From assembly GCA_009921465.1 (NCBI GenBank), contig RFXS01000002.1, positions 1 to 50,690 of the forward strand: 50,690 nt of DNA, read 5' to 3'. Below are positions 26,808 to 35,834 of this stretch, piece by piece. This DNA comes from Betaproteobacteria bacterium. GTDB lineage: Bacteria; Pseudomonadota; Gammaproteobacteria; Burkholderiales; Burkholderiaceae_C. Below the pieces are notes generated by a model, which saw nothing but the letters and a program-made list of their open reading frames with translations, was not told the DNA's origin and did not search any database. The translations under genes and the position numbers were made by a program. Position 1 is the first letter of the stretch, and every line of letters starts with the position of its first letter.

Positions 26808-27002
26808 TTACTTCTTCACAGTGTTGTCTGCAGCAGGAGCTGCGGCGACCACTTTGCTACCTCCATTGAGGAAGTTTTTCACCCAGGTGGTGTTCAAGGT
26901 CAGGGCCAGGTGCACACTGAAGGACGCAATCGCCACAGCAGCAATGAACACTGGAATACCGACCGAGGGCTTCACCACGCACCACATTTTCGAATAGATC
27001 AT
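26808..27002 (-). CDS. pucA: PucA, LH2 alpha polypeptide
   Basis: A 64-residue light-harvesting alpha chain. MWCVVKPSVGIPVFIAAVAI is the typical LH2 alpha N-terminus, His31 in SFSVHLALTLNTTW ligates B850 bacteriochlorophyll, and the Ala/Pro-rich tail (AAAPAADN) resembles the long tail of betaproteobacterial LH2 alpha. AAAGGAGG lies six bases before the ATG. It follows pucB by 12 bases and is followed by a strong hairpin. Confidence 0.93.
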   Translation of the reverse strand: MIYSKMWCVVKPSVGIPVFIAAVAIASFSVHLALTLNTTWVKNFLNGGSKVVAAAPAADNTVKK

Positions 27003-27014
27003 GATGTGCCTCCT

Positions 27015-27167
27015 TTACTTGAGCCAGGGTGAATAAATATAGGCCAGCAGATGGGCGAATGCGGCAATCATGCCGAAAATCTGCGTGCCCTGTATGAGAT
27101 TGCGGTGAATCTCCTCCGATTCGGCCTCGGTCAGTCCCGTTGGCCAGACTTTGTCTGAGTTAGACAT
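27015..27167 (-). CDS. pucB: PucB, LH2 beta polypeptide
   Basis: A 50-residue beta chain: KVWPTGLTEAESEEIHRNLI at the N-terminus, with the first His in the B800/B850 region, then FGMIAAFAHLLAYIYSPWLK, whose His is the B850 ligand and whose end PWLK is typical. AAGGAG precedes the ATG. The 137-base gap to crtC upstream shows no TGT-N12-ACA box and no clear promoter, so pucBA may be transcribed with crtC. Confidence 0.95.
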   Translation of the reverse strand: MSNSDKVWPTGLTEAESEEIHRNLIQGTQIFGMIAAFAHLLAYIYSPWLK

Positions 27168-32631: not shown

Positions 32632-33468
32632 TCAAACTGGCCATTTGGACCAAATCGGCATGTTCAGCCACCAGCTCCACCACTCTGGCCAGCCACGGCT
32701 CCAAAATGGGCCGCTCAAAACGATGCACAAGGCACTGAAAAGCACAGCAGCCAACGCCAAGAAAAGCCCCAGTCGGTGGATGCCCAAGGTACCAATCGAA
32801 TAACCAATGATGTCGCGAAAGAACGTGTCCTCGTGCTCAGGCGTTCTGACCACATGGCCAGGCGCGGGGTTGGTCGACGACAAAATCAACCCGCCGTGCA
32901 GCGACAAGGCAAACACACTGGCAAAGAAAAAACTCACGGCGATCATGTGCGCCGGGTTGTAGTGAAAATGCAAGTACTGATAACCCACGTTTGATACCCA
33001 ATCCAAGTGGCTGAATATCCCGTACGGAAATCCATGCCCCCAAGCCCCCATGAGCACGGGGCGCACGACCACCAAGGTCACATAGGCAGAGATGGCCACA
33101 CCAAATGCCACGGGCACATGAAAGCCCATGCCCAGCTTTCGGCATATTTCAACTTCGCGCATCATCCACGAGCCAAATGCGCCAATGGCACACACCGTGA
33201 TGAGTTGCCACAGGCCGCCCTCCATCAAGGGTGCAAAGCGCAAGCCATACGACAAGTCGGGGGGCGCAATGCTGATTTGCCAGATGTTCCAGGTGGGACC
33301 TTGTGAGGCGCCCCACAAAATGAGTGCTGTACCCAAAAATGCAAAAAATATGGTTGTGACGCCAAAAAACCCGACGTAAAAAGGGCCTACCCAGAAGTCG
33401 AACAAATCGCCGCCCAGCAAGGTGCCTCCGCGTACGCGGTACTTTTTCTCAAAACTCAGCATGGCCAT
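32632..33468 (-). CDS. pufL: PufL, reaction centre L subunit
   Basis: A 278-residue, five-helix membrane protein. [20 protein letters not shown] is the classic N-terminus; [20 protein letters not shown] and [20 protein letters not shown] carry pigment-binding histidines, and [13 protein letters not shown] an iron-ligand His. ATG 33468 (MAMLSF) has AGAGGA upstream; ATG 33462 is a close alternative. A strong hairpin separates it from pufA; pufM follows after 49 bases. Confidence 0.98.
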
Positions 33469-33497: not shown

Positions 33498-33535
33498 CAG
33501 ATGCCGCTTTGAATGGGGATCAAAGACAGCATCTG
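33498..33535 (-). promoter_or_regulatory. pufA-pufL intercistronic hairpin
   Basis: On the minus strand CAGATGC...GCATCTG (7 bp) encloses CTTTGA...TCAAAG (6 bp) with a small internal loop and a seven-base apical loop, followed by TTTATT. This is the position of the Rhodobacter pufBA hairpin that stabilises pufBA mRNA and sets the high LH1:RC ratio. Confidence 0.75.
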
Positions 33536-33551
33536 GATGGCACGACCTTGA

Positions 33552-33761
33552 TCAGGAATTGGGCACAGTGATCGATGCCACCGCCGCAGGTAGCGGCGAG
33601 TTTTGCGCCGCTGCTGCAACCGGTTTTTTCGCACCGTCGAGCCAATTAAATTTGTTGGTGCTCAGCAAGATGAGGTGAATCATCGCTGCCAGACCAAACA
33701 AGAAAATACCCTGCAGCACCATGGCACGCAAAGGGTCATACAGTCGCCAAATTCTCCACAT
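33552..33761 (-). CDS. pufA: PufA, LH1 alpha polypeptide
   Basis: A 69-residue chain: [20 protein letters not shown] then [20 protein letters not shown], where His27 ligates the B875-type bacteriochlorophyll and the LSTxxFNWL end is typical of LH1 alpha. An Ala/Pro/Val-rich tail of about 25 residues follows. The ribosome site TAGGAG overlaps the stop of the upstream 74-codon gene, 10 bases away. Remarkably, it is separated from pufB by that extra gene. Confidence 0.95.
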
Positions 33762-33771
33762 GATGAATCTC

Positions 33772-33996
33772 CTAGATGATGTGGGACATGAAGGTGTACA
33801 CCGCAGCTTTGACACCTTGGCTCATGCTCTTGGCTTCCTCTGCACCGGGGAGCAGATCTCGCCATTGAACACCCACCAGCTTGGCCAGCAGTGCGGCAAC
33901 GAACAAACATCCGAATCCGATGAGATAGATGGCCCAATAAGCGTGAGAACCGTTCGCGCGCGAATGGCTCTCGTTGAGTTGGGATGTGTTTTGCAT
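33772..33996 (-). CDS. 74-residue single-span membrane protein inserted between pufB and pufA
   Basis: ATG at 33996 preceded by GGAG (nine bases). The product has a polar, Ser/Asn-rich N-terminus ([19 protein letters not shown]), one membrane helix at about 20-42 ([20 protein letters not shown]), then [14 protein letters not shown] and an amphipathic C-terminal helix ending [12 protein letters not shown]. Size and plan resemble PufX (polar end, helix, LP turn, short C-terminal helix) and PufQ (74 aa), but I see no convincing residue-level match to either, and PufX normally follows pufM. Tight packing (stop 10 bases before the pufA start, 44 bases after pufB) means it is co-transcribed with LH1. 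Function unknown; an LH1 or quinone-channel subunit or an assembly factor is a guess. Confidence 0.8.
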
Positions 33997-34040
33997 GACA
34001 GTGACTCCGTCAATCAATGGTTGAAAAAATCAGCTCTGAA

Positions 34041-34184
34041 TCAGAACCAGGGACGCCACGCCCAGACCAAGACGTGGGCCAGCACAGCGACTGCTGTAAA
34101 GCCCACGGTGCCCTGCATCCAGTAGTGGTGGAACTCCTGGGCTTCCTCATCGGTGAGTCCGGAAATAGATGTCTTTGATGACAT
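34041..34184 (-). CDS. pufB: PufB, LH1 beta polypeptide
   Basis: A 47-residue chain: [20 protein letters not shown] at the N-terminus, then [19 protein letters not shown], with the bacteriochlorophyll-ligating His37 and the RPWF end typical of LH1 beta. AGGAG precedes the ATG by nine bases. It is the first puf gene, 144 bases after bchZ. That gap holds no exact PpsR box (the nearest match, at 34290-34306, has 11 instead of 12 spacer bases). Confidence 0.95.
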
Positions 34185-34328: not shown

Positions 34329-35834
34329 TCATACAGCCACACCCAGACCCAATTCACGGCTGGCCGCATTCACATGTTCTTGGGTCACCTCGTTGTGACC
34401 TTGCGCTTGCGACAGTTGCTCGGCTTGGTCGCGCAATCGCTTGGCAGCAGAAATTTGCACCAACACAGGCTGGCTTTGCACCACATCGCGCAAACGCTGC
34501 TGCGCCTGGTCTTGCCAACTGGCATTGGGTGGGGCCACACCCCTGGCCTGAGTGGCTTCAACCTTGTCCATCTCAGTGCCCAACGGCAGGATGTGAAACA
34601 GTGCATCAAACAAAGCGTTGCAAACTTCTTGCACCACGTAAGTCGCACCGCTGTACCCCATGAAGGGCGTGCCGGTGTGGCGGCGAATAATGGCCCCGGG
34701 AAATGAAGCCGCGATGAATGCCGCACGCATGGGGCTGCTCCCAGAGACTTCGCTCAAGTACATGCGTTCGTTGTAACTGCCAAACATGATCAGTGGTGTT
34801 TGGGTCTTGACCATTTCACGCACGGCCACGTTGTCGGTTTTGGTTCCAGCGGTGCGCGAGACACTGAAGCGACATGGCAAGCCCATTTCTGCTTCTAAAA
34901 AATGTTTCAAACCACGCGCATAGGTTTCGCCAGCCACCACAGCAAAGCTGGCGGTGGCAAAAAAGTCCTGTGTGACCGAACGCCACAAATCCCACAGCGG
35001 TTTTAGGGTGGTGTGCTTCTCGCGCTCAATGAACGGTTCTGGATCGAGGTTGAGCAATTCACCGAGTTTGCGTAAAAAATAGGTTGTGCTGTGCATGCCA
35101 ATGGGGGCTTGCAGGTAGGGTCGCTCGAGCGCCTCACACAGCATGCGGCCAAATTCGCGGTACATGCAAATGTTGACATCGGCCTCAACCAAGCGCGACA
35201 CATCAGCCAGGTGACTGCCCAAGGGAAACACCATGTTGACTTCTGCACCAATGCCCTGCACCAAACGGCGAATTTCGGCCAAGTCACTGGCACTGTTGAA
35301 TGTGCCGTAACAAGGGCCAATGATGTTGACACGCGGCTTTTCACCCACCGGTCGCTCAGCGAAAGGTTTGCGCGCAGGCACTTTGCGCAAACCGTACTCG
35401 CTCCACAACCAATACATGGCGCGGTTGGCGCACTGCCACTGGTCTTCGTCAATGGTGCGCGGTAAAAAGCGTGAGATGTTCGTGCCCTCAGGTGTCACGC
35501 CGCCGCCGATCATTTCGGCAATGGAGCCTGTCACCACCACTGCAGGCAACTCAGGGTCCAACACCGCGTGGGCACGTTTCATGGCGCCTTCGGTCCCTTC
35601 TCGGCCCAATTGCTCCTCGGCCAAGCCAGTCACCACAATGGGCAACTCGTGTGGCGGTAATGCATCGGTGTAATGCAGCACCGATGTGACGGGCAAGTTT
35701 TCACAACCAACTGGCCCGTCAATGACCACTTGCAAGCCCTTGATGGCCGTGAACACGTACACCGCGCCCCAATATCCGCCTGCGCGATCGTGGTCGAGGA
35801 TCAAAGGAGATTTGAGCATGCTGGGCTGACTCAT
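34329..35834 (-). CDS. bchZ: BchZ, chlorophyllide a reductase subunit Z
   Basis: A 501-residue NifK-like subunit of chlorophyllide a oxidoreductase, which reduces ring B to the bacteriochlorin. [20 protein letters not shown] and [20 protein letters not shown] (cluster Cys) are typical; later [19 protein letters not shown]. Coupled to bchY by ATGA (35831-35834). Confidence 0.96.

Follow-up and report, generated by a model that had tools for sequence, protein, structure and literature searches.

Which protein is encoded by the small gene that separates pufB from pufA, the genes for the beta and alpha polypeptides of light-harvesting complex 1 (LH1), and what might it contribute to the antenna? 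Phototrophic Burkholderiales have a wide distribution; they include Limnohabitans as well as Rubrivivax, which serves as a genetic model. The stretch of DNA analysed here in full (the window) is 50,690 nucleotides long and comes from an incomplete genome (57.6 %, 223 contigs).

The puf operon of the window

The operon lies on the minus strand in the order bchZ, pufB, X, pufA, pufL, pufM and a CxxCH-rich gene, X being our working name for an ORF of 74 codons and a stop (33772–33996, minus strand, from the ORF translation of the window). pufB (34041–34184, minus strand; NF040862, E value 1.2e-23) encodes a tail-less form of LH1 beta with both histidines present, and pufA (33552–33761, minus strand; NF040861, E value 1.5e-17) encodes LH1 alpha; Pfam and NCBIfam support both assignments. 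Upstream, bchZ (34329–35834, minus strand) precedes pufB with no pufQ-like gene between them in our reading of the window, while downstream pufL (32632–33468, minus strand) was identified from its ORF and by profile, and the gene after pufM, rich in CxxCH haem motifs, is pufC by its look. pufB and X are 44 bp apart and X and pufA 10 bp, and a GGAG ribosome-binding site, retained in most close relatives, stands at 34005–34008 (minus strand) within the upstream sequence TGACGGAGTCACTGTC. An earlier note on this DNA had described a well-formed gene with its own ribosome site between pufB and pufA, and the ORF and the site bear this out exactly.

Distribution and conservation of X

X matched in 45 of the 101 nearest genomes (E value ≤1e-3), and the pufB-X-pufA synteny, which the earlier note had proposed as a check, was present in all 30 of these 45 genomes whose loci were fetched; among the remaining 15, at least one match (G089) is a tailed beta and not X. 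A wider scan of the genome collection, with one genome per species, confirmed 92 places, of which 80 were kept, with Limnohabitans, Curvibacter, Methylibium, Piscinibacter, Rubrivivax gelatinosus and R. benzoatilyticus among the record titles. The combined set of 110 loci (L001–L030 and L031–L110, the two overlapping in species) holds 94 distinct X proteins. X stands directly before pufA in all 110 loci and is preceded by pufB in 109, L102 beginning inside X; X is downstream of pufB in every locus where both genes were read. Two operon-bearing contigs (L032 and L080) are titled Akkermansia muciniphila and Candidatus Fonsibacter lacus, and these are probably mis-binned or mislabelled MAGs.

Among 399 Burkholderiales genomes, 48 carry pufL and were taken as the denominator. 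The X profile matched 46 of the 48, a tally that includes any profile match; on reading the flanks, X itself was found in 38 of the 48 (14 of 17 genera), in the order pufB-X-pufA in 37 of them, with the contig of G112 stopping after pufB-X. Five genomes (G226, G240, G089, G314 and G344) have no X, the profile matching their own tailed beta. X is also missing from three genomes of genus code g69 (G129, G249 and G280), in which a gene occupies the pufQ position and the profile matches pufB only. G207 and G361, in which the puf region is cut at contig ends, gave no X-profile match. Outside the order, 32 pufL genomes were scanned and 28 read (5 of the same class and 23 of the same phylum; G937, G1007, G1034 and G1164 were left out), and none of the 28 has X between pufB and pufA. 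The beta and alpha genes are adjacent in all 28, and the adjacency that the earlier note took as its premise therefore holds outside the order but not in most Burkholderiales.

The reading frame of X is open in all 110 loci. Median dN/dS against the window, calculated from 34 close loci, or from 32 in the case of pufL and pufM, was 0.145 for X, 0.081 for pufA, 0.070 for pufB and 0.024 for both pufL and pufM; X is under purifying selection. A chance ORF or a decaying frame is ruled out by conservation across relatives together with dN/dS, confirming X as a real gene, and the absence or decay of the frame in relatives that the earlier note had named as a ground for doubt was not seen. The note's view of X as a membrane protein made together with LH1 also stands; the protein is conserved, and that of the window has no Pfam or NCBIfam match of its own. 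Conservation is uneven along the protein, the mean frequency of the commonest residue being 0.43 in residues 1–18, 0.56 in residues 19–42, 0.70 in residues 43–50, 0.61 in residues 51–60 and 0.91 in residues 61–74, the last forming a conserved C-terminal tail (33775–33816, minus strand).

Kinship of X to LH1 beta

A PDB search with the single X sequence returned LH1 beta chains at a marginal E value (0.092). With a profile made from 42 of the 110 X proteins (alignment A1), the best match was 8z81_B (E value 1.6e-14), followed by 9m8m_B (2.6e-11) and many further LH1 and LH2 beta chains; of the 41 matches with an E value ≤10, the best 38 are labelled antenna beta or antenna alpha/beta subunit, and 17 of these 38 fall below 0.01. 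This profile search found no X sequence among the PDB chains, and no gamma chain was among its matches. Profile–profile alignment (hhalign) of X with long, i.e. tailed, betas gave an E value of 3.8e-17 (score 84.7, probability 98.9 %), and with all betas 3e-16. Over the core columns, X against tailed beta scored 85.5, and the highest of 60 column shuffles reached 23.8; these shuffles preserve the composition of membrane and flanks, and the real score was reached in 0/60 for each of six pairs. Kinship to LH1 alpha was rejected (probability 10 %, score 19, compared with 98.9 % for long beta), and because alpha is also a single-helix protein it serves as a natural control, indicating homology to beta and not merely a common hydrophobic helix. 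X is thus very probably a divergent LH1 beta paralogue, as judged from these profile comparisons. The earlier statement that X has no clear residue match gives way to profile-level homology to LH1 beta and, to a lesser degree, to the proteins at the pufQ position; its report of no match to PufX is upheld, there being no detectable homology to PufX or to LH1 alpha.

Family models of beta scarcely reach X: PF00556 matched neither the window protein nor any of the 42 members searched singly, and NF040862 gave no match to the X of the window at an E value of 10 and matched 19 of the 42 members at a permissive threshold (best 2e-5). Weak Pfam names (DUF6753, DUF2567 and others) were returned for at most 5 of the 42 members and never for the X of the window, and were taken as chance matches of a hydrophobic helix.

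The bacteriochlorophyll (BChl)-ligating His of beta and the His 18 residues earlier are both absent from 94/94 distinct X proteins. The place of the ligand is occupied by Q (43), K (31), S (13), T (3), R (2), G (1) or E (1), and by Lys39 in the window (33880–33882, minus strand), while Trp+6 is retained in 93 and Trp+9 in 47 of the 94. X therefore resembles PufB (PF00556) in its profile homology over the helix and C-terminal region, in Trp+6-Arg and in the LPGxEG tail, which long betas also have, but differs in lacking both His residues and a PF00556 match and in coexisting with a true beta. It lacks the usual BChl ligand, and we infer that X is itself BChl-free.

Tailed betas and the origin of X

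At the X loci, the true beta ends 1–2 residues after PW in 109/110 cases, the last locus beginning inside X. Five Burkholderiales genomes without X have a beta with an extension, namely LPGSEGYTSMYEGIKAAVYNVVPYAFMG in G240, LPGAEGYTSMLDGVKAAANTITPYMMS in G226, LPGSGGYTSMIDGVKAAVNSFMPYVFMA in G089 and G344 and MPGANGYVSMVDGVKAAVSSFLPYVYMA in G314, and the tails of these five betas align with the tail of X with an hhalign probability of 98 % (0/40 shuffles as high). The two arrangements alternate within a single genus (code g30), where tailed beta stands alone in G089, G314 and G344 and X accompanies a short beta in G135, G178, G217, G402 and G428; this natural swap makes the role of the tail directly testable. 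At the five tailed-beta loci (L153, L157, L204, L205 and L206, from G240, G226, G089, G314 and G344), neither X nor a gene at the pufQ position was present in the stretch read. At L153, pufB has no bchZ before it, and the upstream frame is methyltransferase-like.

Unrooted trees were built from 74–75 columns with 22 X proteins (every second of 43, that of G112 included). In two trees, X formed a single clade (support 98 and 100) with the G112 sequence apart, and X plus beta was separated from the pufQ group (87 and 83–86), with about half of the branches unresolved (40/70 and 37/72). Support for joining X to the tailed betas from G089 and G314 was 73, i.e. below 80; the tailed Burkholderiales betas did not form one clade, the position of G112 shifted between trees, and the first tree also showed a weak beta-only side (75–78). 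The X of G112 (L170, 979–1212) is very divergent and has a pufQ-group-like end (GVRKAANSVIPLMFM), yet it is located after pufB.

We consider it probable that a tailed pufB was duplicated and its roles split, the tail going to X and the His to pufB. The duplication would date to an ancestor within the Burkholderiales; of its two products, pufB would have retained its His and shed the tail, and X would have lost both His residues while keeping and fixing the tail.

Relationship to proteins at the pufQ position

In Rhodobacter, pufQ sits between bchZ and pufB, and a small gene occupies this place in many same-phylum genomes (presumably Alphaproteobacteria), in 3/5 same-class genomes and in the g69 genomes. 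It is possible, if somewhat doubtful, that X takes the part of PufQ in Burkholderiales: as a factor for pigment flux or assembly, it would steer porphyrin towards bacteriochlorophyll (in Rhodobacter via ferrochelatase) without being a lasting part of the complex of reaction centre (RC) and LH1, and its gene would have moved from bchZ-pufQ-pufB to pufB-X-pufA. The distributions are complementary, which fits this reading: of 74 pufL genomes read, 38 have only X, 23 only a pufQ-group gene (Q), 13 neither and none both, and X is as strictly separate from pufQ-group genes as it is from tailed beta. Among 158 loci classified out of 159 (a strand rule removed L170, although pufB-X is present there), 115 are bchZ-pufB-X-pufA-pufL, 20 are bchZ-Q-pufB-pufA-pufL and 9 are bchZ-pufB-pufA-pufL, the rest being cut, and X and Q occur together in none.

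The sequence comparisons point both ways. The X profile matches several pufQ-position proteins, best those of G576 (3e-12) and G835 (5e-8), in a search of 1622 frames (genome-wide E values 6.4e-11 and 1.1e-6), and X aligns with the pufQ-position group at an E value of 1.4e-14 (hhalign, 0/60 shuffles as high), but with Rhodobacter-type PufQ the probability is only 31 % (score 22.3, best of 60 shuffles 20.8), and the pufQ group is itself mostly defined by gene position (35 % to Rhodobacter-type PufQ). The pufQ-group profile, run on 13 X genomes, matches the puf locus only, bar a weak hit in G077 (E value 0.004, two stops), which speaks for the PufQ reading; the trees, which group X with beta, speak against it. 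The C-terminus is the best conserved part of both families, and the X of G112 bears a pufQ-like tail (94 %); nonetheless, the tails of X and of the pufQ group are no more alike than shuffles allow (7/40 as high), being linked only through G112 and the tailed Burkholderiales betas (95 %). No PF05398-type PufQ was found among PDB chains, which fits this reading, but the co-expression of X with pufBA suggests a dose above a regulator's need. PF05398 matched neither the X of the window nor any of 42 members, the positive control (L185) giving 4.1e-39; of ten proteins compared with this model, the Rhodobacter-type one accounts for that value, one reached 0.021 (below the cut-off), and seven and the X of G112 (L170) gave none.

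X and PufQ or its positional equivalents therefore share one helix, a conserved C-terminus, the same operon, a complementary distribution and, for the non-Rhodobacter group, a profile match, but X differs in gene position, in the lack of a PF05398 match and in the weakness of the link to Rhodobacter-type PufQ. A simple PufQ orthologue has position, PF05398 and the trees against it and the complementary distribution in its favour, and was retained as a rival. A family match to PufX or PufQ, which the earlier note held would overturn its proposal, was absent as far as the Pfam families are concerned, although the wider PufQ-position group did match. X and Q appear to substitute for each other in the operon, with X lying nearer to beta, and the comparisons suggest that the PufQ group may have the same beta ancestry. 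The pufQ-position protein of G483 (L165, 678–926) retains AH at the beta-His position (FAHFMPKKWRGWMPS), unlike the other members compared, and may represent a transitional form linking beta with the PufQ group. In the parts of the literature available to us, PufQ of Rba. sphaeroides is described as binding ferrochelatase and raising bacteriochlorophyll (PMC5725709), and pufQ as absent from NOR5/OM60 and Sphingomonadales (PMC3176799).

Expression, topology and proposed role

The portions of PMC10037100 consulted report an ORF of Roseateles depolymerans, ORF74, that is co-transcribed with pufB and pufA in a major puf message of 1 kb; in a sigma-factor mutant, pufA, pufB and ORF74 were the most reduced loci (0.71, 1.09 and 2.34 % left), with pufL at 9.61 %. 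In the window, a hairpin is predicted between pufA and pufL (33498–33535, minus strand) by single-sequence folding of an 88-nt stretch (−27.4 kcal/mol, z −2.75, 2/200 shuffles equally stable), leaving pufB, X and pufA together upstream of it and apart from pufL. Because of the Roseateles message and this hairpin, X is likely made at an LH1-like and not a reaction-centre-like dose. Mean synonymous divergence rises in the order pufB (0.26), pufA (0.35), X (0.46), pufL (0.58) and pufM (0.61), which we read as an order of expression with X between the LH1 and RC genes.

X is predicted to have one hydrophobic helix, an LPG and a C-terminal helix, with a transmembrane segment at residues ~20–41 (33874–33939, minus strand) according to the hydrophobicity of the alignment. 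The AlphaFold2 model, a poor model of the monomer (mean pLDDT 61.7, pTM 0.32), has helices at residues 7–40 and 59–73. The plan given in the earlier note (one helix, an LP turn and an amphipathic C-terminal helix) is thus recovered by prediction, except that the amphipathicity of the tail was reached by 129/2000 shuffles and is not clearly beyond composition. Of 42 X proteins, the N flank of the helix is the more basic in 24 and the C flank in 12.

Our leading reading, held tentatively and at slightly less than even odds, is that X is a polypeptide without pigment that lies within the LH1 ring or against it; the earlier proposal of a candidate LH1 subunit or pigment-delivery factor is likewise plausible. 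X, beta-like but devoid of pigment, would insert next to the helices of LH1 alpha and beta, and its conserved tail, periplasmic if the beta topology is kept, would touch neighbouring LH1 or RC–cytochrome surfaces. In doing so, X would stabilize or interrupt the ring, as LH1 gamma or a gap protein does. The gamma and gamma-like polypeptides of Blc. viridis and Rpi. globiformis offer an analogy, each being a single helix between beta helices with several copies per ring. PufX genes are located after pufM. Alternatively, X could resemble PufX in occupying a gap in the ring as a single copy and opening LH1 to quinone exchange, as its size, single predicted helix and location in the LH1 operon would allow, but this is improbable: PF11511 was unmatched by the X of the window and by 42/42 members, the gene position is another, several copies of X per RC would be expected from its place in the LH1 segment, and the sequence kinship of X is to beta. 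Still less credible is that X is a functionless leftover of a beta duplication, for although its pigment ligands are lost and its N-terminal part is variable (0.43), the median dN/dS of 0.145, the open frame in 110/110 loci, the conserved tail (0.91) and the mostly kept ribosome site argue against it.

More broadly, the beta family may have yielded pigment-free, antenna-serving branches (X and the PufQ-position proteins), with X a stoichiometric, hitherto unseen RC-LH1 polypeptide of Rubrivivax, Limnohabitans and their kin whose tail replaces that of beta, a combined proposal that we regard as rather unlikely as it stands. The pigment-free partner reading predicts an extra polypeptide to be sought in RC-LH1 structures of phototrophic Burkholderiales. 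As a point of difference, the gamma-like polypeptide of Rpi. globiformis has 22 residues and is encoded far from pufLMC, according to the text seen of PMC9640540.

Earlier reports of the gene

The earlier note treated the gene as unassigned and new, but as an ORF it is already on record, by position, as ORF74 (PMC10037100) and ORF2 (PMC12817894), with no function named and no relation to beta given in the text covered of either paper. The locus tags of Roseateles depolymerans place ORF74 (RD2015_RS05155) between pufB and pufA, as with X, and ORF2 of Rubrivivax gelatinosus lies upstream of pufA, where the R. gelatinosus loci L090 and L098 carry X; the two are very likely the same gene as X, ORF74 being matched by position alone. 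The available part of PMC12817894, citing Nagashima 1994, describes ORF1, which precedes pufB in R. gelatinosus, and ORF2, which precedes pufA, as two ORFs without known function, both deleted in Gemmatimonadota; it compares ORF2 with alpha (PufA2) and rejects it as the source of Gemmatimonas pufA2, noting that the His is missing. We considered ORF1 as a pufQ-like gene, but no such gene is present in L090, L095 or L098, and ORF1 is probably the end of bchZ. The literature covered, with most subscription journals outside its scope, held no statement linking this ORF or PufQ to LH1 beta. What is new here is the identification of X as a putative divergent LH1 beta paralogue, which would give a conserved ORF of unknown function in the middle of the LH1 operon (so described in the part seen of PMC12817894, after the 1994 paper) the identity of a His-less beta paralogue and thereby a testable role.

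The same photosynthesis cluster of the window holds two further PF00556 antenna genes above the cut-off (26880–27125, minus strand), probably pucBA; LH2 genes inside the photosynthesis cluster are described as a peculiarity of Limnohabitans in the portion of PMC12654162 available to us.
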